Source: Elusimicrobiaceae bacterium (GTDB lineage: Bacteria > Elusimicrobiota > Elusimicrobia > Elusimicrobiales > Elusimicrobiaceae). Taken from it: a DNA stretch of 64,000 bases. The notes beneath the pieces were generated by a model. That model saw only the letters and a program-made list of their open reading frames with translations. It did not search any database and was not told the origin of the DNA. The DNA is taken from contig JAFXOI010000003.1 in assembly GCA_017528825.1 (NCBI GenBank), forward strand, positions 62,001 to 126,000. The letters are read 5' to 3'. Both the position numbers and the translations under genes were made by a program. Positions 2,143 through 47,522 of the stretch are shown piece by piece. Every line of letters starts with the position of its first letter. Within the stretch, counting starts at the first letter, position 1.

Positions 2143-3227
2143 TTACAACTTCAGCCACTTAAATTCAAAAAAGACGACGGCGCCGAACACAAACACCGGT
2201 CCCCAACCGGCTAGGAACGGATTAATATAGCCGTTTTCGCCTACTGATGTGATCATGCTGATTAACCACCAGAAGGTAAATGCAATCACCATAGAGGCAA
2301 TAATGTTGAGGATTTTGCTTTTGCGTCGGGTACTAATGGCAAAGGGCATCCCCAGCAGACACATTAGTAGGGTGACAAACGGAGTAGCCAGTTTAGACTG
2401 GCGCTCCGTTTCTGCGGTGTATGGGCAAGGCCAGTTCTCTTAAAGAAGGCGATCCGTTTAGTTAGTTCCCGAATGCTTAATAATTTTCCTTCCGTTTTGC
2501 TCACGGACATATCTTGCGGCGGTAAAGTAATAGGGGAAGGCAATTGCTCAAAGTGCTCATCCTGCGTGGTAGTTTGCTTGGAAAAAGTGCGTTGCGTACC
2601 GTCGTATAAAATCCAGCGTTTTTGATCTTTATCCCATACCATGCGTTGGGCAACTAATTGGGAAGCGATGTCCCAATTTTGGTCATACGTATCAATGGAT
2701 ACTTGAACCATAAGACCTTTTCCCAAGTCTACCCATTTGGCAAAAAGCATTTGATCGGTGGATAATTTGATTGCCACATCCGCTTCCGTGTTGAGTTTAA
2801 AATCGGCGTCCGGTTTAATTTTGGTGTAGTACAAAATGTCTGCCTTCAGATTAAGCGGCGGTACGATAAATTCTTGCACAAACATGGTGGTTGCGGCTAC
2901 TAATATAATACACACAATAACCGGTTTGAACAACTGACGCGGAGCAAAACCGCCCGCCACGCAAGCCGTCCATTCCCCGCTAGCCACCATTTCAGACACC
3001 ACTGAAATAGAGGCCAGTAAACACGCCACCGGCATAATGGTGGTGAGCCAGTTAGGGAAACTAAGTAAAGAGTAAGTTAAAATAGAACCCAAAGTGGCCG
3101 AGCCGTTACTTAAAGTTTTTAATTTTTCAAATGTATCGCCCAATACCACCAAGGTGGCAAATACACCTAGAGCGAAGAAAAAAGGCCCCCAAAATTTCTT
3201 GGCAATATAGGCAAATAAGCGGCTCAT
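2143..3227 (-). pseudogene. lptG: LptG-like LPS export permease, interrupted by a frameshift
   Basis: A YjgP/YjgQ-family inner-membrane permease. The family works as an LptF-LptG pair with LptB to extract LPS for transport to the outer membrane. The start is MSRLFAYIAKKFWG at 3227, behind an AGAGG ribosome site. N-terminal membrane helices and the periplasmic beta domain read normally to about base 2440. The frame then runs into a stop at 2364. The expected C-terminal sequence (TAETERQSKLATPF, then VTLLMCLLGMPFA) continues in another frame to the stop at 2143 and includes the last membrane helices. One base appears to be missing near 2415-2440. Because the gene is normally essential with an LPS pathway, an assembly error or very recent mutation is more likely than old decay. 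It overlaps lptF by 4 bases (ATGA). Confidence 0.8.
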
Positions 3228-4330
3228 ATATTTAACCTCTTTTTCCACAAATATCGTGCCGCCGCTATGCCCACTGCGTAGGGTATCCACGGGGCAATAT
3301 AAGCCAGTACCCCATATTTTTTGCCTAAGCTGAGCCCTAAAGTCATCAGTAAGTAAAAGGCAAAAATGATAATGACACTAAACAACATTCCCCATCCTTT
3401 ATTAGAGCGTTTTCCTAAAGAAAACCCCAGCGGACAGCTGACAAATAATAGCAAAATAGGCGCCCACGCCAACACATTGCGCATGCTGATTTCCGAGCGA
3501 TATTCCGCTTTTTGTTCCGGTGTCAATAACCCCCGTCTTAGTATGCGCAGCATTTTGGTAGTGGTCAATTCTCCTACCCGCATACGTCGGCGATGATCTC
3601 GTATTAGCGAAATGCTCATGGTGTAGGAATCAAAGTCTGCCGCAATGATGGAGGTGGGATCTTTTGCATTGATGCGTTGCATCTGTCCGTCTTTGAGTTG
3701 CAGACCAATCGCACGGTCTGTGAGAATAATTTTACCGGTGCTGGCATTTACTTTAGTGCTTAGGGAAGCGGCATCTTTTTTCCTGATAAGGTGGATCTGT
3801 TTGGCAAGTTTCGTCAAATCATCCAGTTCTTCGAGGTATAAATCCCATTCGCCTAAATCTAAAAATGTTTTGGGTTCCAGGGTAACCTTGGTAATTTTTT
3901 GGCGGGCCTCATCGCGCCGGTCTAAAAAGCGTTTGTAACTGCGCGGGCTTAACCAGTTCCCTAAAAAGAAAAGTAATATGCTCAGCCCAATAGCGCAAAA
4001 CAACATGGGACGTACGATTTCCCGAAAAGAAAATCCGGCGGCACGCAGCGCAATCAATTCTCCATGTTCGCTCATATTAGTGAGCGTAAGTAAAATGGCA
4101 ATTTGAAATGCCATAGGCGCTGCCAAGGTGAACACATCCGGCAAAATATTGAGTAAAGAAGAAATAATCCAAGTCCAGCTGGTACCGTAAGTCATGGCCA
4201 TATTCATGATAGAAATGAATTGCTTCATGAATATAACAAAAGTCAAAATACCCACCACCCCTACAAAAAAAGTCAGCAGGCTTTTAGCAATATATACCGT
4301 AAAAATGGCCGGACGCTTTAGGTGTATCAT
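3224..4330 (-). CDS. lptF: LptF-like LPS export permease
   Basis: A YjgP/YjgQ-family membrane protein of about 368 residues: N-terminal helices (TVYIAKSLLTFFVGVVG), a GELIALRAAGFSF cytoplasmic loop typical of the family, a periplasmic beta-rich middle, and C-terminal helices (APILLLFVSCPLGFSLG). With LptB/LptG it drives LPS export from the inner membrane. The start MIHLKRP at 4330 fits the family length; an upstream in-frame start would add 17 residues. It is the first gene of a two-gene operon with lptG (ATGA overlap). The neighbouring waaA and GT9 genes also concern LPS. It is assigned LptF rather than LptG by gene order. Confidence 0.85.
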   Translation of the reverse strand: MIHLKRPAIFTVYIAKSLLTFFVGVVGILTFVIFMKQFISIMNMAMTYGTSWTWIISSLLNILPDVFTLAAPMAFQIAILLTLTNMSEHGELIALRAAGFSFREIVRPMLFCAIGLSILLFFLGNWLSPRSYKRFLDRRDEARQKITKVTLEPKTFLDLGEWDLYLEELDDLTKLAKQIHLIRKKDAASLSTKVNASTGKIILTDRAIGLQLKDGQMQRINAKDPTSIIAADFDSYTMSISLIRDHRRRMRVGELTTTKMLRILRRGLLTPEQKAEYRSEISMRNVLAWAPILLLFVSCPLGFSLGKRSNKGWGMLFSVIIIFAFYLLMTLGLSLGKKYGVLAYIAPWIPYAVGIAAARYLWKKRLNI

Positions 4331-4464
4331 TATGGTTATTCTAACAAATATCCGGCCCGTCCGACCGCAAAAACCGTTCAAAAGGCGGGCGGGTGCGGTT
4401 TTGTAAGCCAGTGCATATAGACAGAAATATTATAAAATGAAATTATGAGGTTTCATCGTTGCCT

Positions 4465-7400
4465 ATGAAAACCGCACGATCTGTTTTGTGCTTGGTTTTA
4501 GCTTGTCAGTTGCTCTTCGGCCCGTATTTGCAGGCCGAAGCACTTCCGTATCGGTTGGTTGATACCGATAAGTATGATATTTTTGAAGAAGAACAACGGG
4601 CCAAGCGGGAACAAGCCCTAAAGATAGAAGAAGCTCCCGATGATGCCCAGCTGCTTAAATATACCAACGAATTCTGGCGACAGGCCGTAACTGCCGTTGA
4701 CGGGGATTATGCGTTGGATAAAGAACCCGAACCCATTCCGGATTTGACCTTATTAAATCCTACCCTTTCCTTGCCGTTATACGGTACCAATGTAGCTTTG
4801 ACCGGTCGATATATGGTGGGCTTTAAGCTCGATGCCAAACGCTATTCCCAAGATGCCAATAATGATATTGAAGAACGCAATGTGCGTAACGTTGAAATGC
4901 AGCAAGAGATGAAACTGAAAATGCAGGGGAAAATTTTGGACCGCATTTTTGTAGATATTGACTATGACGATAAGAGAAAGGAAGAAAAAACAATTTCAGT
5001 GGCCTATCGCGGTAAACCCGGTGAACTAGTGCAACTGGCGGAATTTGGAGATATTAATTTGTCGTTACCCCAAACGGAATTTATTGCTTATGAAAAGCAA
5101 TTATTCGGGGCCAAAATGCATTTGCAACATAAAAATTTAGATTTACATATTATCGGCAGTCAAACAAAAGGTTCCAGTAAGCAAAAGCAATTTGTAGGGA
5201 GCAGTGTTTTCGAAAGGGTGTCCATTAAGGATATAAATTACATACGCCGTACTTATTATGATTTGACATTTGGCTCCAACACCCCGCCGGGGTCCAATCC
5301 ACAGTGGCAGAGCGATATGGGTAATATTGCTCCGGGCTCTGAAGAAATTTATGTGGATACAAACACTACCGGTGGGGATTATATCCCGGTTACTTTGACG
5401 CCTCGCGATTATGGTACCGGCACCTCATTCCCAACCTCTAAATTCAAATTATTATCCCGCGGAACAGACTATACGGTAGATTACAGCCGCGGAATTATTG
5501 AATTTGCCCGCCCGCAACAAGCAGCCAGCATGATTGCCGTCAACTACCGTAATATGAATGGTACTTGGCTCAGCCCAGACCAAAACCAACCCTATGTTAT
5601 TAAAACACCTAATGACCGTTCTGTTTATTCAGATACCGAATTAGGATATCGAATGGAAATCAAAAGATTTTATAGTGTGGGCGCTCAACAAATTACTCAT
5701 GATAACGGAAAAGGAAACTTTATTTTACAGTTGTTAGATGCCAACGGGCAGGAAGTTGGCTCTTATAGCACTCCCCCTCAAGTCTATCCAACTACGATTG
5801 ATATGGATTTTGAGAAAGGTATTTTTGAGCTACACGATATTATGAAGGATAATATGGGACTTTATAATCCTACGCCTACCTCCTCTAAAAACCGCACCTT
5901 CCAAGTGGAATATACTTCTAATGTGAAGACGTATTTTATTGAGGCCGGGATTGTAGTGGAGTCTGAGACAGTCAAATTAAACGGCCGGCGATTGCAACGC
6001 AATAACGACTACTACATAGATTATACTTCGGGTTATATCACTTTCTACAAAGGGGAAGAAATCACAGATAGTTCCGTTATTGATATTACGTATGATACAA
6101 CAGACGGTTCCAGTTCTAATAATTCCATTATGGGGGGACGTTTAGATTACAAACTGTTTGATAAAATCCGTTTGGGTACTACCGTACTGAAAGAAATGGG
6201 AGATAAGCCCGATACGGTGCCCCAAGTAGGCAATTATGGAAAGGATTTGTTAGTTTACGGGGCGGATGTGAACGCAAAGGACGTGCGTCTTACGCAAGAT
6301 TTGTCCGTTGATTTCGGAGCGGAAATCGCTAAAAGTGAGAAAAAGGAAAACGCATTTGGATATGCCATGGTAGATAGTATGAATGAAACCAATATCCAAA
6401 CCGGCGGCAGTATGATTTTCTATGATTGGACGGTGGCCGCCAACCCCAATGACAAACCTGCCTTTTTAGATTCCTTACAATGGGACACACAAGACTTGCC
6501 CTCTTTGGAAATCAATCCCAATGCTATCGGTACTTATAATGAAAAACAACAAGTATTGGTGATTAACTATGACTTTAGTAAGGCAATCAATGGCGGCTTT
6601 GCTGATCATGATGAAATTTCACTTGTCTATCCCTTAAGCACCAGCGGGGTGGACTTGTCTGATAAAACCTCTTTTGCCCTCACCATGTTAGGGGAAGGGG
6701 CGGAAAATACTGGTGCTCCTAAAATTGATATCACTTTTGGTAACATCAGCGAGCGTTCCGATAGCGTCAATCCGAGTCAAGTTCCGCAAGGTTTGGTGCC
6801 AAACGGTTACGGTATGTACACTGCGTGTAACCCCAGGACTCCATCCCCTAAAACGGAAGATGTCAATTGTTTGTCTACCTTAGCTCCGAATGAGGACGTA
6901 GGATGGTGGTTTTCTAACCCCGATGGAACCTTACAGCGTTTTAATCCGTTTGTACACAATCCATTTAACCCGCAGCGCCAGCCCAACGGACGTATTGACA
7001 GCCAAGATTTGAACGGAAACGGTAAATATGATGAGGAAGAAGCCGGTATCGGTGGGCATTTCGGCTACTATAATCCTTCTACTGATATTACCGGTGTAAA
7101 TAATACATTAGCTTATAACGGTTGGCAAACTTTTACCACACCGCTGATTATTTCCAAAGAAGATAAAAACAATGGCCGATGGACGGCGGTGCGGCATTTG
7201 CGTATTACCTTGAAATACAATGGCAAGATGAAAGGTACGGTAAAAATTGCCAATGTGTCTTTGGCAGGTACGGCGTGGCATCCGCAAGAAGGGATAGAGC
7301 CGTCACAATTTGCTGTGTCGGGCATTAATAACGTAGAAAATACCAATTATATTCCTATCTTCTCCCCGGGTAGCGGAGATGGGGTGCGCGTATTTAACTA

Positions 7401-9876
7401 TTTATACGGTTCCATGTCTAATTACCGGGAAAAGTATGACACGGCTAATGTAATGGACCAAGCGTTGAGTTTGACTTATAAAGATATAACAGCCAGCCAG
7501 ACAGATCAAATGTTTGCAAATCGTAATTTTAGCTCCATGGATTTTACGCAACATAAAGAATTTCGGTTTTTGTTATATAGTAAAAATACGGATACAGGCG
7601 AGTTTTTTATGAAGGTGGGTACGGATGACAATTATGACAAGATTATAGTGCCTTTAGGATATGGCGGTACGCGCGGAATGTGGCGTTTAATCTCACTTAA
7701 AATGAAAGATAGTGACGGAGACGGCGTTCCGGATTCATTTGAAAATATGTCAGATGCGTCGTACGGCGTGCGGGTAAGCCACCAACGCAGTGCAGGGGGG
7801 CTGATGAATTTTAAGAAAGTTAGTATGGTTATGGCTGGTGTTGAAGTTATTACTGATCCGGCAATTACTGATACAACAGATCCTACAGCCTATATTGGTG
7901 GTAATGCAAGTGGCGAAGTGTGGCTGAATATGATTCACTTGGCCGAGTCTGTCACAACCCGCGGAGAAGCCTACAAAGTAGACGGGGTAGTAAAACTGGA
8001 CCAATGGGGTAGTGTCGGAGCAAAGTATAAATATATGGACAAAAACTTTGAAACTCCTCTGACCGTAGCAAAAAACCAAGAAAGCACGGAAGAAGAGTAT
8101 TTCTTAAAGATGAATCGTATTAAATACTTCCCCATGCAGGCAAACTTAAACCGCAGCAAAATAGTAACACCCAATGTAACAGATACCAGTTCCTATAATA
8201 CGGTGAGTTCTTTAGACAAAGGAAAAGTGGAGCGCCAACAGGCCAACGTGCGCGGTGATTTCATTAAAGACAAGTTGCCGCAAGTGGGATTGGAATATTC
8301 TTTGGAGCAAGTAGATTATGAGGCACGCCGGCGTAAAGACCGAGCCCAAACCTATGCCGTAACAGTGCAACATAACACACGTACCGTCAAAAATTTAACT
8401 GCCGGTTATTCTTACACAGATACACAAATTCATTACGACAGAGAGCAGCATTTGGTTTCCGAAAATAATTATAACACGCAAGAAGAAACCCAGCGTATGA
8501 ACGTGAAGTTTAGTTATGAGCCACATCAGAATTTTAACATTACCCCCAGTTATAGTTTGAAACAAAGCAAGGAAGAGCGTCGCCAACATTTGGAACATAC
8601 GGACAATTTCCATCGTTATCCCAAAGCCATGAATCAAAGTGCCGGTTTTAACAGTACTTGGCGAATTACCAAATGGCTGGCCCCATCTGTCAGCTATACT
8701 ATAGCCACCACGGAAACCAATAATCTGACGGCCAAGACTTTCAACAAGGGTAAGGCTGACGAGAAAACTTTTGATATCGGCGAATTAAAAAGTGTAAACC
8801 GTAATGCCGACGGCGGCGTATCCTTAACATTAAACGGAAATGAAATTTTGCCTAATAGCAAGCTGTTTAAGAACTTCGTCATTTCTTCCAGTTATCGTTT
8901 GCAAGATGCGGACTCTTGGAATGATATGGACGCAGACTTTGATAGCCGTACAGAGTTGTGGATTCGTTCTTCTTTAAGCGGCACCGGCCGTTACGCTCAA
9001 CGCCAGAATATGGTACTGCGTGATACGGTTACCTCTTCCCAACGCTGGATGCCGCTGGCAGAGTATGAACTAACCGGGGTGTTAGCTCCTTTGAGCACCG
9101 TTTCCTTCATCAACAACTTTACACAAAGCCGCCAGCGCAATAACCGCACCGGTACGCAGTCTGAAACCAAAAGCCTCACTTTACCGGATATGGTATTTTC
9201 TATTTCTGATTTGGAGAAGGCCTTTTATGCCGGGAGCTGGCTGAGTTCCACTAATATCAAGTTGCGTTATAGTGCAATCGCCACTAATACCATAGACAGT
9301 TCTAAAGGAATGGAACGTAAATACGGCGGAGATTTGCGTTTTATGTTGTTTAATATGTTCGATACCGTGTTTATTTATGATAAAAAGACTTCCTGGCAAG
9401 ATGATTTGCAATGGAATAGAAGTTTGGAGAAATCTGACGGAGAAGATTTCTCTGCCCAAACTTCTTTTTATCTAGGAAATTGGCGTTTTACTCCCAAATT
9501 TGTATATAGTACTTATGAAAAACGACTCGTAGCTAATCAGCTCAGTCAAAGCAGTAAAGAATTAACACCCAGTTTAACCGTTCGTTTAGATTTTAATTTG
9601 CCGCGCGGAATAAAATTACCCCTTATCAATCGTATTTATAATGCCACAAACCGGGTAATCTGGAACACTACCTTTTCCTATAAAGAAAAGACCTCTCCAG
9701 TAGAAGTAAAAGACAATTATCACTCTTTTGACGTGTTATCTTCTTTGGATTACGAATTATCTCAAAATTTACGTTTCAACGTGGCCGGTGGTATTACCTG
9801 GCTCAATCATGATTATGTGGAAACAGAAGATTACATCGCTTATAACTTGGCGGCCAACCTCACTATTCAGTTCTAA
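4465..9876 (+). CDS. Giant SprA-like outer-membrane beta-barrel protein
   Basis: About 1,800 residues with a signal peptide ending near YLQAEA. The segment at about residues 190-270 (LPQTEFIAYEKQLFGAKM, then LDLHIIGSQTKGSSKQKQ and a RRTYYDLTFG stretch) resembles the repeated cassette of SprA/Sov, the outer-membrane translocon of the type IX secretion system. SprA proteins of Bacteroidota are usually about 2,300-2,500 residues, so this one is shorter. The C-terminal third is alternating amphipathic strands ending in TIQF with a terminal Phe, a typical BAM signal. Two Ca-binding-like loops occur: DLNGNGKYDEEE (about residue 850) and DSDGDGVPD (about residue 1085). Start: ATG 4465; an in-frame TTG at 4459 is better spaced from GAGG. 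It heads a probable operon with comF, waaA and the GT9 gene. Function as a translocon is inferred. Confidence 0.7.
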   Translation: MKTARSVLCLVLACQLLFGPYLQAEALPYRLVDTDKYDIFEEEQRAKREQALKIEEAPDDAQLLKYTNEFWRQAVTAVDGDYALDKEPEPIPDLTLLNPTLSLPLYGTNVALTGRYMVGFKLDAKRYSQDANNDIEERNVRNVEMQQEMKLKMQGKILDRIFVDIDYDDKRKEEKTISVAYRGKPGELVQLAEFGDINLSLPQTEFIAYEKQLFGAKMHLQHKNLDLHIIGSQTKGSSKQKQFVGSSVFERVSIKDINYIRRTYYDLTFGSNTPPGSNPQWQSDMGNIAPGSEEIYVDTNTTGGDYIPVTLTPRDYGTGTSFPTSKFKLLSRGTDYTVDYSRGIIEFARPQQAASMIAVNYRNMNGTWLSPDQNQPYVIKTPNDRSVYSDTELGYRMEIKRFYSVGAQQITHDNGKGNFILQLLDANGQEVGSYSTPPQVYPTTIDMDFEKGIFELHDIMKDNMGLYNPTPTSSKNRTFQVEYTSNVKTYFIEAGIVVESETVKLNGRRLQRNNDYYIDYTSGYITFYKGEEITDSSVIDITYDTTDGSSSNNSIMGGRLDYKLFDKIRLGTTVLKEMGDKPDTVPQVGNYGKDLLVYGADVNAKDVRLTQDLSVDFGAEIAKSEKKENAFGYAMVDSMNETNIQTGGSMIFYDWTVAANPNDKPAFLDSLQWDTQDLPSLEINPNAIGTYNEKQQVLVINYDFSKAINGGFADHDEISLVYPLSTSGVDLSDKTSFALTMLGEGAENTGAPKIDITFGNISERSDSVNPSQVPQGLVPNGYGMYTACNPRTPSPKTEDVNCLSTLAPNEDVGWWFSNPDGTLQRFNPFVHNPFNPQRQPNGRIDSQDLNGNGKYDEEEAGIGGHFGYYNPSTDITGVNNTLAYNGWQTFTTPLIISKEDKNNGRWTAVRHLRITLKYNGKMKGTVKIANVSLAGTAWHPQEGIEPSQFAVSGINNVENTNYIPIFSPGSGDGVRVFNYLYGSMSNYREKYDTANVMDQALSLTYKDITASQTDQMFANRNFSSMDFTQHKEFRFLLYSKNTDTGEFFMKVGTDDNYDKIIVPLGYGGTRGMWRLISLKMKDSDGDGVPDSFENMSDASYGVRVSHQRSAGGLMNFKKVSMVMAGVEVITDPAITDTTDPTAYIGGNASGEVWLNMIHLAESVTTRGEAYKVDGVVKLDQWGSVGAKYKYMDKNFETPLTVAKNQESTEEEYFLKMNRIKYFPMQANLNRSKIVTPNVTDTSSYNTVSSLDKGKVERQQANVRGDFIKDKLPQVGLEYSLEQVDYEARRRKDRAQTYAVTVQHNTRTVKNLTAGYSYTDTQIHYDREQHLVSENNYNTQEETQRMNVKFSYEPHQNFNITPSYSLKQSKEERRQHLEHTDNFHRYPKAMNQSAGFNSTWRITKWLAPSVSYTIATTETNNLTAKTFNKGKADEKTFDIGELKSVNRNADGGVSLTLNGNEILPNSKLFKNFVISSSYRLQDADSWNDMDADFDSRTELWIRSSLSGTGRYAQRQNMVLRDTVTSSQRWMPLAEYELTGVLAPLSTVSFINNFTQSRQRNNRTGTQSETKSLTLPDMVFSISDLEKAFYAGSWLSSTNIKLRYSAIATNTIDSSKGMERKYGGDLRFMLFNMFDTVFIYDKKTSWQDDLQWNRSLEKSDGEDFSAQTSFYLGNWRFTPKFVYSTYEKRLVANQLSQSSKELTPSLTVRLDFNLPRGIKLPLINRIYNATNRVIWNTTFSYKEKTSPVEVKDNYHSFDVLSSLDYELSQNLRFNVAGGITWLNHDYVETEDYIAYNLAANLTIQF

Positions 9877-9889
9877 GCCATGGCAGCGT

Positions 9890-10603
9890 GTGCGGGCTTT
9901 CTGTTTGCATATTCTGCTGCCTAATACTTGTTATCATTGCGCTTGTGATTTGTCATGGAACAATACGCATCCGTTATGTAAGGATTGTGAACAACAATTA
10001 CAACCCGTGGGCCCTTTGTATTGTTTGCGTTGTGGAAAACCTTTGCCGGATGGAGGGGCTCATTGTTATGATTGCCGCGGAACAAAAGGGAAACAGTATG
10101 CCTGTAAGGTCATCCGCTCGGCCTTAGTATTTAATCCGGTGCTTCGGCCGTTGGTGCATGCTTTCAAATATGCCGATAGACCCTACCTGGCGGATTATTT
10201 AGCGCAATGGATGAATGTATCTTGGCAAAAATATCCGGATTTAGCACAGGTGCAGGTGTTGGTCCCGGTGCCGCTACATCCTAAAAAGCAAAAACAGCGT
10301 CGGTATAATCAATCGGAACTGTTAGCGCGTGCCTTGGCACATTTGCAAGGCTTGCCGGTGGATAGCGCTTGTTTGATAAGGGTGCGTAATACTCCCAGCC
10401 AGACACAATTTGGCCGCGCGGGGCGTTTGGAAAATATGCGGGGTGCCTTTCGTTGTGAGCAGCCCGCTAATATAAAAGGGAAAATAGTACTGCTGATAGA
10501 TGATGTGGCCACCACAGGGGCTACTTTGGAAGGGTGTGCGGAAGCCTTAAAGGCGGCCGGCGCGAAAAAAGTAATCGCCTACACCTTGGCGCGAGAAGTA
10601 TAA
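9890..10603 (+). CDS. comF: ComF-family phosphoribosyltransferase-like protein
   Basis: The N-terminal part has two CxxC-type pairs (CYHC...CKDC, then CLRC...CYDC), as in ComF zinc ribbons, followed by VLVPVPLHPKKQKQRRYNQSELLA and the PRPP-binding loop LLIDDVATTGAT near the C-terminus. In naturally competent bacteria ComF helps single-stranded DNA uptake; many homologues sit in non-competent species with unknown roles. The frame is open upstream into the preceding gene, so the start is uncertain: GTG 9890, 13 bases after the previous stop, gives a normal length of about 237 residues; TTG 9905 is an alternative. The pilus locus elsewhere in this window makes a competence role possible but unproven. 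Confidence 0.85.
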   Translation: MRAFCLHILLPNTCYHCACDLSWNNTHPLCKDCEQQLQPVGPLYCLRCGKPLPDGGAHCYDCRGTKGKQYACKVIRSALVFNPVLRPLVHAFKYADRPYLADYLAQWMNVSWQKYPDLAQVQVLVPVPLHPKKQKQRRYNQSELLARALAHLQGLPVDSACLIRVRNTPSQTQFGRAGRLENMRGAFRCEQPANIKGKIVLLIDDVATTGATLEGCAEALKAAGAKKVIAYTLAREV

Positions 10604-41180: not shown

Positions 41181-41238
41181 TGCTAGTATCGCTCCGCCCC
41201 TCTTCTTGCGTTATTTCTCATTGTCTTTTCTCCACGTC

Positions 41239-41263
41239 ATCCAGAGGGGTAGTAACCTAGGAT
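41239..41263 (+). repeat. Degenerate REP-like palindrome
   Basis: cgtc flank, then ATCC...GGAT at the ends of a 25-base unit and a ctc flank, as in the other copies, but the middle of the stem is mismatched. Confidence 0.5.
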
Positions 41264-41361
41264 CTCCTCTTTATTTCCGTCTTGTTCTTTTTTTCTTAAA
41301 AAACTACAATATATACAATCAAAAATCTGTACAGTGTAGAAAATTCTCGCAGGGGGAAAAT

Positions 41362-43962
41362 ATGTTGCCTTTAGTGAATGCTGCATCTGAAACATGGTAT
41401 TTTAAAACACTGCGCTTTTTATTATCTGCTTGTTTTTTGATGGTCCCTTTATTGTTTTTTACGGATTTAACTACCAATCCTTTTACCATTCAAAGTGTGT
41501 TATTATATGTTTTGCTGGCCGCCATGTACGGAATCTCTGCGGTACGTTTTTTGCGGGAAGGCGTGCTACATTTTACCCATACTTTTTTTGATTTAGCTTT
41601 TTTGCTCTACGTGTTGGCGTGCATTGTCAGCTGGCTTTCTGCCGTGTCAGCTGCGCCGCAATATATGCGCCAGACATTATTTTTTAATTTGTTAAATTTT
41701 GGTACTTTGCTTTTGGTGGTGGCTTTGGGTGCGTACATGCTGAGTAAAAATATTATATTCAGCGGAGTGATTGAAAGCAAAACTAACTACATCATGTTGT
41801 TTATTGTGTGGGGCGCGATGTGGTTATTACTGCCGTGGTTGAAGTCTACTCCTGCCGGAAGTGGTTTGTGGTCGCACATGTTTGATGTGTATGGGCTTGT
41901 GTTATGGGCGACTGGCATTTGGTTGGGTAGTCGTATTTTGCGCAAACTCACTCAAGAAAATGTACTGGTGCTGAGTTTTATTGCTTGTGCTCTTGCGTGC
42001 ATGTACGGTGTTTTTCAAGGATTTGGACTCGATATTTTATGGCCGTTTGATATGCAACAGTTTGCCAGCAAAGCATTTTCCACGTTCGGAAATCCTAACT
42101 TTTTATCTTCTTTTGTGGTGATGTTACTGCCGGCGCTACTGGTGTATTACATGCGCACCGAAAGTCGCAAAGATATTTGCGTGTATGGTTTTTTGGTGTT
42201 GGTGTATTTGTTTTATTTATCTTTCGGATTATGCCGTTCCTGCTGGATAGCCGCCGGAGCGGGGCTACTGATGATGTGGATGTTTGGCACACTGCGTACG
42301 CTCATTTGGCAACGGAAAGGACGCGTGTTTTGGTTAGTTGTGTTAGGCATAGCAGTTACCTATTTGCCTGTCTTTGTACAAAGTACGCGTGAAGCGGTGG
42401 TCAATCGTGTATCCGAAGTGGCGCAAGTAACGCCGGCTTCTTTCACTCTCAATGTAGCGCGGGAAAATATTTTTCCTTCCTTACATCAACGGTTATACAT
42501 GTGGAATGTATCGAAAGATATTTTTCTGCACCGTCCGGTCATGGGTGCGGGGCTGGGAAATTTTCAGACGGCTTTTGCTCGCACACAACCGCATACCCTT
42601 TTGATATATCCGAATTTGCGTGAATTAAAAACAACCACCCAATCTCCTCATAACGAATTATTTTTTCAATTAGCTCAAGGCGGCATTGTGGGGCTAGGGT
42701 TATTTGTGTTTATGTTTATGGTACTGTTTTTGGAAGTGCATGATTTTGCGGCGCATAAAAAAGAAGGAGATAAAAAGCAATTATTGCAGGCCTTGTTCTG
42801 CGGCATCTTGGCGATGCTGGTGGATAATATGCTCAACATTTCTTTACATGCGGTTGTGCCGGCGTTTATCTTTTGGTGGTTGGTCGGAGCGGAAGTGAGC
42901 GGTGTCGGTCGGGCCGAAAAAAATGTAGAAATTTCGTCTAACCCGGTAACCAAAACAGTGGCCTTTGCTATTTTAGCAGGGACTATTTTAATCGTCATAT
43001 GGCAGAGCTTAATCTTGCGCAGTGAGTTTGTGTCTTTCCGCGGTCAAAAATCTTTAGCGATGCAAAATATACCCGCCGCCCAACAAGATTTGGCGACAGC
43101 CCTTGGATTGTATCGGGCGAATAGTGAAGCGGGTTACCTACTGGGGCAATTATTTTTGAAAGAAGGAAAATATGCGCAAGCCTTGGAAGCCTTTGAAAAA
43201 ACAATCTCTGCGGCAGCATACCATGACGAAGTATATTTTCAGGCGGCTTTGGCGGCTCTTGGGCAAAACGATCGTGCCAAAACAGTGCGTTATTTGCGAG
43301 AGTCCTTGCGTTTGTCGCCGTTTAATTTAATGGGATATGATATGCTGGCCGCACTGGTGCAGGAAGATATTATTTACGCCGATGCCGATACATTGACTAT
43401 CTTAGAGCGCGGATTAAAATTATTTCCGTACGATACGCAATTGTGGCACGATGTGGGATTTATTTATCTCAAACGCGGCGAAAAAGAATATGCTAAAACG
43501 ATTTATAAAAACGCGTTAGAAACAGACACATTAGATAAATCTTTGCTGAGCAGTTTGAAAAAATTATACGACTCGAAAGAGGAATTACCTGCTGTTTTGG
43601 AGCAAGCTACACAGTTGCAGGGATATTATGATAAAGTCCAAAACTTGCGCGGTACTTCGAAAAATAATTTTAAGAAACTGCGTGAACAACTGGAAAAATA
43701 TATAGAAGACTATCCGCAAGATGCTAACGGAGTTATTTTGTTGGCGCGGTTTTTTAGTTTGACAGGAAATGATATTAAGTCAAAAGAATTATTAGAACAA
43801 GTACTGGCCGTACACCCGGATAATTTGTCGGCTAATTTGGCTTTGGCATCTCTGTTACAAAAAGCAGAAGACATCCCAGATGCCCGCCGTTACTTGAACA
43901 ACGTGCTGTTTTATTATCCGCGAAATCAAATTGCTTTACGGCGGTTAGAGCAACTGCAATGA
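41362..43962 (+). CDS. O-antigen ligase/polymerase-like membrane protein with C-terminal TPRs
   Basis: 866 residues. About a dozen membrane helices fill residues 1-560. They include the Wzy_C/O-antigen-ligase signatures FSTFGNPNFLSSFVVMLLPAL and SPHNELFFQLAQGGIVGLGL around a periplasmic loop (SLHQRLYMWNVSKDIFLHRPVMGAGLGNF). The remaining ~280 residues are TPR-like helices (LGQLFLKEGKYAQALEAFEK, YLKRGEKEYAKTIYKNAL, LARFFSLTGNDIKSKELLEQ). Members transfer polymerised glycans to lipid A core or, in PglL/PilO types, to pilins. The pilus operon directly downstream makes pilin glycosylation a plausible alternative. The start at 41362 is fixed by AGGGGG. Confidence 0.85.
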   Translation: MLPLVNAASETWYFKTLRFLLSACFLMVPLLFFTDLTTNPFTIQSVLLYVLLAAMYGISAVRFLREGVLHFTHTFFDLAFLLYVLACIVSWLSAVSAAPQYMRQTLFFNLLNFGTLLLVVALGAYMLSKNIIFSGVIESKTNYIMLFIVWGAMWLLLPWLKSTPAGSGLWSHMFDVYGLVLWATGIWLGSRILRKLTQENVLVLSFIACALACMYGVFQGFGLDILWPFDMQQFASKAFSTFGNPNFLSSFVVMLLPALLVYYMRTESRKDICVYGFLVLVYLFYLSFGLCRSCWIAAGAGLLMMWMFGTLRTLIWQRKGRVFWLVVLGIAVTYLPVFVQSTREAVVNRVSEVAQVTPASFTLNVARENIFPSLHQRLYMWNVSKDIFLHRPVMGAGLGNFQTAFARTQPHTLLIYPNLRELKTTTQSPHNELFFQLAQGGIVGLGLFVFMFMVLFLEVHDFAAHKKEGDKKQLLQALFCGILAMLVDNMLNISLHAVVPAFIFWWLVGAEVSGVGRAEKNVEISSNPVTKTVAFAILAGTILIVIWQSLILRSEFVSFRGQKSLAMQNIPAAQQDLATALGLYRANSEAGYLLGQLFLKEGKYAQALEAFEKTISAAAYHDEVYFQAALAALGQNDRAKTVRYLRESLRLSPFNLMGYDMLAALVQEDIIYADADTLTILERGLKLFPYDTQLWHDVGFIYLKRGEKEYAKTIYKNALETDTLDKSLLSSLKKLYDSKEELPAVLEQATQLQGYYDKVQNLRGTSKNNFKKLREQLEKYIEDYPQDANGVILLARFFSLTGNDIKSKELLEQVLAVHPDNLSANLALASLLQKAEDIPDARRYLNNVLFYYPRNQIALRRLEQLQ

Positions 43963-44056: not shown

Positions 44057-44101
44057 GGTAGAAGGAGTGTTTGCTTGATAGGAAGAGTAAATAAAAATCT
44101 T

Positions 44102-45904
44102 ATGAAAATAATTACTATTACAAAAGAAAAAATTTTGGTTACGCTGTTGGCTTTTGCTTTGGCCGGCGGCTCTGTGTTTGCGGCAGTTTCCCCGGCGAAA
44201 CAACTTGAAAAAGGGAAACAGCTTTATGCTCAAAATAAAGATGACGAAGCTATGGATGCTTTCATCGATGTTTTGGTGAACGGTTCCCGCGCTGAAGTGG
44301 AAGAAGCAAACAAGTACGTGAATTTGATTCATAGCCGAATCGGCGGTATTCAAGACCCGATCGAAGTAGATGTGAATTTTAAAGAAGGGGAAGCAAAACG
44401 CTTGGAAGCTGCCAAAGATCCTGCAGTGTTAGAAGAGCAGTTAAATGCAGAAACTGCTGCCATAGAGGAAGAAGTAAAAGAAGCCGCAGCACCGGCAACC
44501 GCTCAAGCTGATGCCGCTGCTTTGGCTGCTCAAAAAGCACAAGAAGAAGCCGCCGCACAAGCTGCTTTGGCTGCTCAAAAAGCACAAGAAGAAGCCGCCG
44601 CACAAGCTGCTTTGGCCCAAAAGGAACAAGAATTATTAAAAGAGCAAGCCCGTGAGCAAGCACTCAAAATGCAAGGGGTGGCTGATCAAGAAACAGAAGA
44701 AGCCAAATTGGAACAACAACAAACCAATTCTACCTTTGTAGATTTAACCACGCCGGCTGCCTTAAAAGCGCGTCAAATTTATACCAGCCAGAAATTAGAA
44801 AATATGAAAGCGGCCGCTATCGCTAAGTTGGAAAAAACAAAAGGCGTACGCGTGTATTTCCGCAACGGATTGCCGGATGCCATTGATATAGACAGTGAAA
44901 TCTTATTCAACGGATACAAATTCCGTCCGGAAGCCTTGCCAGTACTGGATCAAGTATATACGTTGATGGCCTTAACACAAGGTGCCGGATACATTATTTT
45001 ACCGCCGGGATCTTATACGGATAACATCACGCTCTCGGGCATCCGCCAGGCCATGGCCTTAAATTCTTTCTTGGTACATAAAGGTTTGTCTTCCGGAAAA
45101 ATCAGCTACAATATGGGACTATTTGACCAAGAACCTCCGGCCAAATTTGCCAATTTAGAAGGCGTTTCTATCGTATTTGATTTTGATGCAGATTTGCCTT
45201 CCGCATTGCCTGATGCCACTTCTGTAAGCAAATTGCCGATGCTCAGCATGGCTGTTGTGCCGGTGAGCAATAAAATTGATCCTTCTGCCGGAGAAGCATT
45301 TGCTATAGATTTCTCTGTAATTGAAACCCAAAATCCGTTGGATAATTGGGTGTTCCAAGTGGTACAACATGCGGCAGACGGTTCCTATTATGTAGTGCGC
45401 CAATTAGAAGGTTTTTCACCTGTCTACCATCAAATAGTATGGAATGGACGCAAAGGAATTATCGGTCCTGAGCTGGCCTGCGGTACCTACACTTTGGCTT
45501 TAACTGCCGCTGACGTGCAAGGTGGCAAGCGTACGATACGCCGCCAAGTGGAAGTAGCTTGCAAAGGAGCTGCTGCTGACAAAGCTAAAGCAGCCGCAAA
45601 GGATACGGAAAACGCAGATGCTGCAAAGTTGGATTACAAAACGGCTCGTTTGTGGACCAAACCTAACCGTGTAATGAAGGGTGCGGCAGTTGCAGAACCG
45701 GAAGCTGAACCGGCCGCAGAACCGGAAGCGGTAGATCCGTTTGCAACCGATAATGCGCAAGCCGCTCCTGCTGCTGTGGATTATAATAACTATGGTGGAA
45801 CTAATAACGCGGCTCAACCGGCGCCTGCCAACACGCAGGCAAATGTTCCTGCTCAAGGGGTCGCTAACCCATATGATATGCCGTATGATGAATATGGCAA
45901 CTAA
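44102..45904 (+). CDS. Secreted protein with TPR-like, OmpA-like and FlgD-like domains, head of the pilus operon
   Basis: 600 residues. Signal peptide ending GSVFA|AV; a TPR-like pair (KQLEKGKQLYAQNKDDEAMDAF); an Ala/Gln/Glu coiled coil (residues ~110-210) with a 15-residue tandem repeat; a divergent OmpA-like domain (~240-340; SEILFNGYKFRPEALPVLDQ, then SGIRQAMALNSFLVHKGL); a FlgD-like Ig domain (~400-490; VWNGRKGIIGPELACGTYTL); and a Pro/Ala/Glu tail. The OmpA part would bind peptidoglycan, so a periplasmic anchor for the pilus machine is a reasonable guess. Start ATG 44102; TTG 44075 is an alternative. The FlgD and OmpA calls rest on pattern only. Confidence 0.7.
   Translation: MKIITITKEKILVTLLAFALAGGSVFAAVSPAKQLEKGKQLYAQNKDDEAMDAFIDVLVNGSRAEVEEANKYVNLIHSRIGGIQDPIEVDVNFKEGEAKRLEAAKDPAVLEEQLNAETAAIEEEVKEAAAPATAQADAAALAAQKAQEEAAAQAALAAQKAQEEAAAQAALAQKEQELLKEQAREQALKMQGVADQETEEAKLEQQQTNSTFVDLTTPAALKARQIYTSQKLENMKAAAIAKLEKTKGVRVYFRNGLPDAIDIDSEILFNGYKFRPEALPVLDQVYTLMALTQGAGYIILPPGSYTDNITLSGIRQAMALNSFLVHKGLSSGKISYNMGLFDQEPPAKFANLEGVSIVFDFDADLPSALPDATSVSKLPMLSMAVVPVSNKIDPSAGEAFAIDFSVIETQNPLDNWVFQVVQHAADGSYYVVRQLEGFSPVYHQIVWNGRKGIIGPELACGTYTLALTAADVQGGKRTIRRQVEVACKGAAADKAKAAAKDTENADAAKLDYKTARLWTKPNRVMKGAAVAEPEAEPAAEPEAVDPFATDNAQAAPAAVDYNNYGGTNNAAQPAPANTQANVPAQGVANPYDMPYDEYGN
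44516..44616 (+). repeat. 45-bp tandem repeat within the coiled-coil region
   Basis: Two exact 45-bp units (44516-44560, 44561-44605) plus 11 bases of a third, coding AALAAQKAQEEAAAQ. DNA identity suggests recent slippage or unequal exchange; copy number may vary between strains. Confidence 0.9.
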
Positions 45905-45923
45905 ATAAGTAAGGATTTTGCTT

Positions 45924-47522
45924 ATGAATTTTGCAGAAATGCTGATAGGAAAAAATATGAAGGCTCATCCCGAAGCCTTGGGATTGTACATAGGCTTGGA
46001 TGAAATGTATCTGGCACAGACCGCTCAGAAAGAGGGAGGAGCTGTGCTGGAGTCGTTGTTGCGTATTCCTATACCGGAAGTAGACCGTAGCAAATTGAAA
46101 CCGTTGGAACTTAATGACGGATTCTTTGCTGAAAAAAATTGGTTAGAACCACTGACTAAAGTGGCTGCCAAAAAACGATGGAATAATACAAAAGTAGTGG
46201 TCTCGTTATCAGCTTCTTTTGCTTTGTTGCGGCACTTTGTGGTTCCCGCCGTGATTGAGCGAAAACATTGGAAAGAAGCAATTCCCTTGCAAGCTCGTAA
46301 GTACATCCATTTTCCGTTTGAAAAAACCTTATATTCTTACCATGTTTATGAGCTGGAAACCGCAGCTAGTAAACAAAAACGTTTAGGAGTTATTTTTACA
46401 ATGACTCCGAAATCTACCATTGAAAAATTGGAGAAAGGTTTGCGCAGTGTGGGACTGGATCCTATTGCTATCGAACCGGCTCCTTTGTCATTGAGTCGTG
46501 CTTTTGCAGAGAATGATAAGGAAGCGGTGGATGATTCAGGTCGTATTTATTCGTTTTTCGGCACCGATATGGCCAGTTTTGTCTTTACCAACCAACATGC
46601 ACCCGTCCTATTCCGTGAAGTGGAAATAGGAGGAATGTCACCGGTAGAACGGCGTCGTTTTGAAATTACTAACTGTACAGAATTTATTAGCAAGCAACTA
46701 GAGAAGGATCCCTTTGACGAAGCAGTTATCATGGGGGCGGATATTGATAACTGGGTGGCTTTGTTGGAGGCGGATTCTAAAAAACCGGTTCGGCGGTGGG
46801 ATTTGCGTGAAGTATATGGCGTAGAAACAAAATCTGCCGGAGAGATGGCTGCAATCGGGGCCAGTACCAAGTTTTACTACTCCAAAGAGCCTGATTTGGA
46901 TTTCATCAAACGCAATCGTTTGAGTGACTATGAATTCAGCGCATCCTTGACTTTTTGGAAAATTACAGTACTTGTGGCCTTGGTTTTATTGGGGTTGTTG
47001 GGAAAAACCTGGTGGGAAGTGCATTCCGAAAACAATAAATTGGCTGATTTGAAAAAACAGAATAAAGTAGCCATTGCGGATTTCCAAGGATTAACGGCGC
47101 AACAAATTCAAAGCAATTTGTCTCGCATCAAGACACAAAATTCCAACTTGGAAGGCGTGCTTCCTCAGAAGTATTTAACGCCGATTTTGTCTGATGTCGC
47201 CTCGTCCATTCCTAATGCGGTATGGATTACCAAATTGACCTATAAAGAAGAATTTCCAGCCAAAAAGGGAGATGGCCGTTCTCTTGTAATAGAAGGCGGT
47301 ATCCAGACCGGAAATTCGGAACAAGATTTAACGGTAGGAAAACAGTTTTATGATCGTTTGATGCAGAAATCTTCCATTAAAGATATCTGCGGAACGCAGG
47401 GAGAGATCAAGTATCGTGATTTAGCATTGACAGGTGATAAACCGGCCGGAAAGCATGTTGAATCTGCTAAAAAAGAAACCTCCTATATATTTACCTGTGA
47501 TAAAAAAGGAGCTTCCAGATGA
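45924..47522 (+). CDS. PilM-PilN fusion protein
   Basis: 532 residues. Residues 1-~350 resemble the actin-like PilM/GspL cytoplasmic domain (LGLYIGLDEMYLAQTAQ, SLSASFALLRHFVVPAVIER, AIPLQARKYIHFPFEKTLYSY). Then comes one membrane helix (FWKITVLVALVLLGLLGKTWW), a coiled coil and a PilN/GspL-like periplasmic ferredoxin fold (PILSDVASSIPNAVWITKL). In most type IV pilus systems PilM and PilN are separate and interact. Start ATG 45924 (AAGGA upstream). The stop overlaps the pilO start (ATGA). Confidence 0.82.
   Translation: MNFAEMLIGKNMKAHPEALGLYIGLDEMYLAQTAQKEGGAVLESLLRIPIPEVDRSKLKPLELNDGFFAEKNWLEPLTKVAAKKRWNNTKVVVSLSASFALLRHFVVPAVIERKHWKEAIPLQARKYIHFPFEKTLYSYHVYELETAASKQKRLGVIFTMTPKSTIEKLEKGLRSVGLDPIAIEPAPLSLSRAFAENDKEAVDDSGRIYSFFGTDMASFVFTNQHAPVLFREVEIGGMSPVERRRFEITNCTEFISKQLEKDPFDEAVIMGADIDNWVALLEADSKKPVRRWDLREVYGVETKSAGEMAAIGASTKFYYSKEPDLDFIKRNRLSDYEFSASLTFWKITVLVALVLLGLLGKTWWEVHSENNKLADLKKQNKVAIADFQGLTAQQIQSNLSRIKTQNSNLEGVLPQKYLTPILSDVASSIPNAVWITKLTYKEEFPAKKGDGRSLVIEGGIQTGNSEQDLTVGKQFYDRLMQKSSIKDICGTQGEIKYRDLALTGDKPAGKHVESAKKETSYIFTCDKKGASR

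Follow-up and report, generated by a model that had tools for sequence, protein, structure and literature searches.

The window analysed here, a stretch of 64,000 nucleotides from the Elusimicrobiaceae bacterium contig JAFXOI010000003.1, carries on its forward strand (4465-9876) an sprA-like gene for an outer-membrane protein of 1803 amino acids, identified from its open reading frame (ORF), the family model TIGR04189, a PDB profile search and Foldseek. With a probability of roughly 85%, this gene specifies the outer-membrane translocon, homologous to SprA/Sov, of a reduced export system of Elusimicrobiota that would resemble the type IX secretion system (T9SS) and use PorV carriers dedicated to their cargo. 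The computed evidence comprises homology, fold, near-universal conservation, co-occurrence with putative partners, gene pairing and co-loss.

A search with NCBIfam TIGR04189 (T9SS translocon Sov/SprA) matched the protein in five stretches (E 3.8e-31, 107 bits). When a profile built from 57 relatives and covering residues 28-1227 was compared with the 177,635 sequences of the PDB, the sole match was SprA of F. johnsoniae (E 1.1e-36), with three significant collinear stretches in 6h3j_A (150-286, 699-780 and 1157-1571), and a separate C-terminal profile again retrieved SprA (4.2e-16) and no other significant match. Only these 57-row profiles succeeded, as neither a single-sequence phmmer search nor a 13-row profile gave a convincing match in the PDB; the Pfam search of the protein was negative. 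Residues 497-560 also matched a family of phage tail tube proteins (E 5e-4), but this match, weak, local and lacking fold support, was judged to be due to chance.

Predicted structure points in the same direction. Two overlapping fragments of 1200 residues were modelled with AlphaFold (mean pLDDT 80.7 and 86.3, the latter for residues 604-1803), and in Foldseek searches the four SprA entries occupied the top four positions for both of them (E 6.6e-45 to 2.3e-33 and 1.9e-30 to 1.5e-26), the runners-up, at 6.6e-5 and 3.2e-6, being at least 20 orders of magnitude weaker. TM-scores against SprA were low (0.36-0.43), presumably because fragments rather than the whole protein were folded. The models contain 13 predicted strands before residue 640 and 28 long strands from residue 1148 on, the latter in the C-terminal barrel half (residues 1119-1803; 7819-9873, forward strand). 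As judged from profiles and modelled fold, positions 4465-9876 encode a genuine SprA homologue. The original prediction, made from the letters alone, had proposed a likeness to SprA and an extended C-terminal barrel and had suggested a structure comparison; both proposals were borne out, the predicted fold being related to SprA. The closest known proteins are SprA of F. johnsoniae and Sov of P. gingivalis (TIGR04189; PDB 6h3i, 6h3j, 8gl6 and 8gl8), which share with the Elusimicrobiota protein the three collinear stretches, the Foldseek fold class, an N-terminal signal and a long barrel. The Elusimicrobiota protein differs from them in its position beside lptFG and comF, in a score below the family's equivalog cut-off and in its length, which is about 22% below that of the 2319-position TIGR04189 profile, close to the quarter that had been estimated.

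The ORF is unbroken from the ATG at 4465 to the TAA at 9874-9876, beginning with a Sec-type signal sequence and ending in ...TIQF. It is not a chance frame, because the protein is conserved in all 41 relatives compared, at 36-77% identity. The signal sequence, read from the letters, spans approximately residues 1-27 (4465-4545, forward strand; MKTARSVLCLVLACQLLFGPYLQAEA), and its hydrophobic character is kept within the genus. An N-terminal segment rich in invariant columns (residues 71-265; 4675-5259, forward strand) corresponds to TIGR04189 positions 58-254 and aligns to residues 150-286 of SprA in 6h3j; the cassette around residues 190-270, which together with the C-terminal barrel had originally suggested the likeness to SprA, falls inside it. 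Two acidic loops, noticed earlier as resembling calcium-binding loops, proved to be real, and the 57-row alignment shows them conserved. Loop 1 (residues 841-859, NGRIDSQDLNGNGKYDEEE; 6985-7041, forward strand) follows the pattern N841-G-R-I-D845..D848-L-N..N852-G853..D856, with D845 and D848 present in 56 of 57 rows, and in the comparison of the family profile with the PDB it aligns with the D-rich segment EDINRDNT of SprA itself, a feature common to both proteins near SprA 1157-1170. Loop 2 (residues 1082-1090, DSDGDGVPD; 7708-7734, forward strand) shows the pattern D1082..D1086..P-D1090, D1082 and D1086 being retained in 53-54 rows. Both loops may bind calcium.

Named relatives assign the genome that contains the window (1.53 Mb, 95% complete) to a gut lineage of the Elusimicrobiaceae, phylum Elusimicrobiota (Candidatus Avelusimicrobium or uncultured Elusimicrobium), in agreement with the predicted setting outside Bacteroidota. 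Across the phylum, the sprA-like gene was found in 213 of 248 genomes and in 168 of the 177 of high quality, mostly once per genome, or twice if a contig break or insertion has cut it in two. The absences listed concentrate in one family (f12), chiefly in a genus with small genomes (g41) that may be Endomicrobia-like.

Putative partners of the translocon were surveyed in 60 sampled Elusimicrobiota genomes. Proteins of the PorV/PorQ family were detected in 59 of them (above the cut-off in 39), reaching about 30 or more per genome in several environmental lineages, and type-A C-terminal domains (CTDs) of T9SS cargo were detected in 47 (above the cut-off in 42), with up to 72 per genome. Among the best-scoring places (150 for PorV and 146 for CTDs), at least 28 CTD-PorV pairs separated by no more than 800 nt were identified in 16 genomes, a lower bound, and in all 28 the CTD lies directly upstream of PorV on the same strand, no other arrangement being seen among these places. 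A CTD-bearing metalloprotease of the M6 type (L191) is among the paired cargo proteins. In other Elusimicrobiota, CTD-like ends were also observed on extremely long frames (G074:C6:90200-90490, 17343 aa; G044:C3:110811-111176, 14455 aa; G026:C6:189653-189958, 13077 aa), which are possibly giant surface proteins.

Elusimicrobiota join type-A CTDs with PorV-family carriers encoded downstream. In Bacteroidota, all type-A CTDs rely on a single PorV, whereas type-B cargo depends on cognate carriers resembling SprF, whose genes come directly after the cargo genes (PMC12618676). The proteins described here resemble the PorV of Bacteroidota T9SS in their family and in their pairing with type-A CTD cargo, but differ from it in that a genome may hold up to 30 or more family matches, often encoded right after the cargo. 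With SprF/PorP they share the position of the carrier gene immediately 3' of the cargo gene; however, the CTD is of type A, not B, and the carrier belongs to the PorV family. The suggestion that the gene might encode a stand-alone translocon is not supported, given the co-occurrence of carriers and cargo throughout the phylum and in the genome of the window, where the searches for PorV and for T9SS CTDs that had been advised recovered one convincing carrier and one cargo.

In that genome, the only convincing PorV (L185:7661-8620, 83.7 bits) begins about 22 nt after the gene of a 1658-residue cargo protein (L185:2665-7638). This protein has a Sec-type signal and FlgD-Ig domains, and it ends in a CTD-like stretch, FFYPNPF...LEITKLPVPGKMSIKMYNLAGDLVREG ... 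GKRVARGVYFGLVDF...CQKVVKILIPR, of the YPNPF...GVY...KILIP type. When ten CTD proteins from other Elusimicrobiota were combined into a CTD profile and this was run against 290 ORFs of this genome, the cargo was retrieved with E 1.8e-18, to which its internal Ig domains contribute; the next ORF had E 0.5. The CTD of the cargo holds an insertion and its halves score separately. Two further PorV-family matches in the genome were discarded as carriers, being a FadL (L186) and a TraF_2 protein (L187). Of the 25 genomes of the genus, that of the window included, 24 yielded the carrier, and the ORF upstream of it ends in the same CTD motif at genus loci with sufficient sequence, locus L206 aside. Relatives at the level of the order (about 42% identity) also show the cargo-carrier pair, one locus (L224) being masked. 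The gut genus of the window has been cut down to approximately one recognisable cargo-carrier pair. Downstream of the pair (L185:9130-15997), the genes look, as read by eye, like a Tad-type pilus locus.

The small-genome genus g41 provided evidence of joint loss. PorV (E<1e-7) was present in all 15 genomes with a clear SprA and in none of the 12 without it, and three genomes with a mere SprA remnant hold only weak PorV remnants. If the genomes were independent, a split of this kind would have a probability of 5.8e-8, a figure that overstates the case since they are related. Some SprA-less genomes of the genus (1.3-1.4 Mb) are as large as those keeping both genes. Outside g41, several genomes devoid of SprA keep PorV, most of them fragmented assemblies; genome G048 is not.

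Homology to the translocon of F. johnsoniae suggests the following route. Cargo would cross the inner membrane via Sec and pass from the periplasm into the SprA-like barrel. There its C-terminal Ig-like domain (the type-A CTD) would bind the loops of a carrier of the PorV family sitting at the barrel's lateral opening, and carrier and cargo would then depart together for the cell surface. In F. johnsoniae itself, PorV occupies an opening in the side of SprA and its loops bind the cargo CTD within the pore, while GldLM supplies the energy that releases the carrier-cargo complex (PMC10994853). For Elusimicrobiota, transport itself, its direction and the specificity of the partners are inferred.

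Regarding the gene neighbourhood, comF (9890-10603, forward strand; Pfam DZR_2 and Pribosyltran) follows the sprA-like gene, with an in-frame GTG 13 nt past its stop codon, and this adjacency is kept across the phylum. Upstream, and divergent from it, lie lptF (3224-4381) and lptG (2364-3290), both on the reverse strand, both with PF03739 and both in phylum-wide synteny. The order lptG-lptF (divergent), sprA, comF, which spans 2364-10603 in the window, is kept out to the most distant families sampled (loci L031-L110 and L160-L179), and a single-contig genome (G071, locus L178) carries the gene in the same setting, whereas only the genus of the window was found to have kdtA and a heptosyltransferase next to the gene. 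A permease pair for lipopolysaccharide (LPS) is in this way kept beside the gene of a secretion translocon and comF. An operonic arrangement with comF and LPS genes had been proposed; comF is indeed the next gene downstream, but lptG-lptF run divergently and the other LPS genes were found only in the genus. As had been remarked, the gene does not lie beside gld/por genes, no gld/por cluster being recognised among the tested neighbours. Elsewhere in the window, a pair of neighbouring ORFs (609 and 534 aa; 44075-47522) has no Pfam match and lies after an O-antigen ligase/TPR protein (41206-43962).

The neighbourhood raises the question of whether the barrel might serve LPS or lipid assembly in an LptD-like role. 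The conserved order beside lptFG, followed by kdtA and the heptosyltransferase in the genus, would fit such a role, but Foldseek separates SprA (1.9e-30) from the best LptD (2.1e-5) by more than 20 orders of magnitude, and co-occurrence, pairing and co-loss all follow PorV and CTD cargo; this explanation is judged very improbable, a search for a separate LptD not being part of the analysis. Hardly more credible is an orphan SprA relic with another outer-membrane role, as adhesin or scaffold, instead of export: the retention of only about one cargo-carrier pair in the gut genus could be read in that way, yet the gene is unbroken and nearly all genomes keep it in strongly conserved form, the single pair is likewise conserved, and in g41 PorV is gone where SprA is gone. 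An unlikely explanation, though one with more in its favour, is a complete ordinary T9SS whose components, GldKLMN, PorU and the rest, have diverged beyond the reach of the profiles applied. SprA, PorV and the CTD of the genome of the window all score below their curated cut-offs, so that other parts could fall under detection; the controls included no confirmed T9SS bacterium, which leaves the sensitivity for GldL, GldM and GldN uncalibrated, although PorV was detected over the same distance; and GldK, SprE/PorW, PorD, SkpA, Plug and PPI lay outside the searches. Against a complete system, neither GldL nor GldN exceeded the cut-off in the 60 genomes, GldN giving at most one match there, at E 0.08, and PorV was recovered by the same method in all but one of them; GldM was not found in the genome of the window, the sole genome searched for it; PorU never reached its cut-off, its profile aligning almost exclusively in the CTD part and its catalytic part not being found; and no gld/por cluster was recognised among those neighbours of the gene that were tested. 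Sub-threshold GldL matches (best 1.8e-5, in one genome) were discounted because similar ones occurred in Bacillus and archaeal controls, and the PorU matches across the phylum were ruled out as sortases, covering little other than the CTD part.

Several observations weigh against a reduced type IX-like export system. The SprA-like protein of the genome of the window scores 107 bits against an equivalog cut-off of 200, its PorV falls short of the cut-off of 90, and its CTD reaches 21.2 where 23 is set. GldL and GldN (60 genomes) and GldM (own genome) were not found, though cargo release in Bacteroidota needs the GldLM motor, and the gene adjoins lptFG, not gld/por genes. Genome G048, 99% complete, holds two PorV-family matches (2.5e-25) and no SprA match. 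The genomes examined were mostly metagenome-assembled, and the pairing counts cover best-scoring places only. The motor, the hub and the sortase were looked for and not found, for which reason the reduced export system is not classed as a canonical T9SS: compared with the canonical energy chain (GldLM motor and GldKN hub) and the PorU attachment complex, which would fill the same pathway, GldL, GldN, GldM (own genome) and the catalytic part of PorU were not detected, in line with the divergent secretion system that had been envisaged as one possibility. A bolder proposal, to which we give somewhat less than even odds, is that a type IX-like exporter lacking the GldLM motor, the GldKN hub and the PorU sortase, and equipped with cargo-dedicated PorV carriers, was already part of the ancestor from which the whole phylum descends and in the gut genus serves essentially a single giant surface protein.

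A 2016 survey placed T9SS in Bacteroidetes only (PMC4793230) and a 2024 paper reported T9SS genes to be absent outside the FCB phyla (PMC11285876); a search of the open-access literature retrieved no paper describing such a system in Elusimicrobiota. In Elusimicrobiota, the T9SS core extends over a further whole phylum, its carriers being paired with cargo and a motor going undetected. This bears on what a minimal type IX machine comprises and on the role of energy input, thought in F. johnsoniae to lie in carrier-cargo release. If the exporter indeed operates without motor, hub and sortase, translocon, carrier and CTD would suffice by themselves as a core and would draw their energy from another source.
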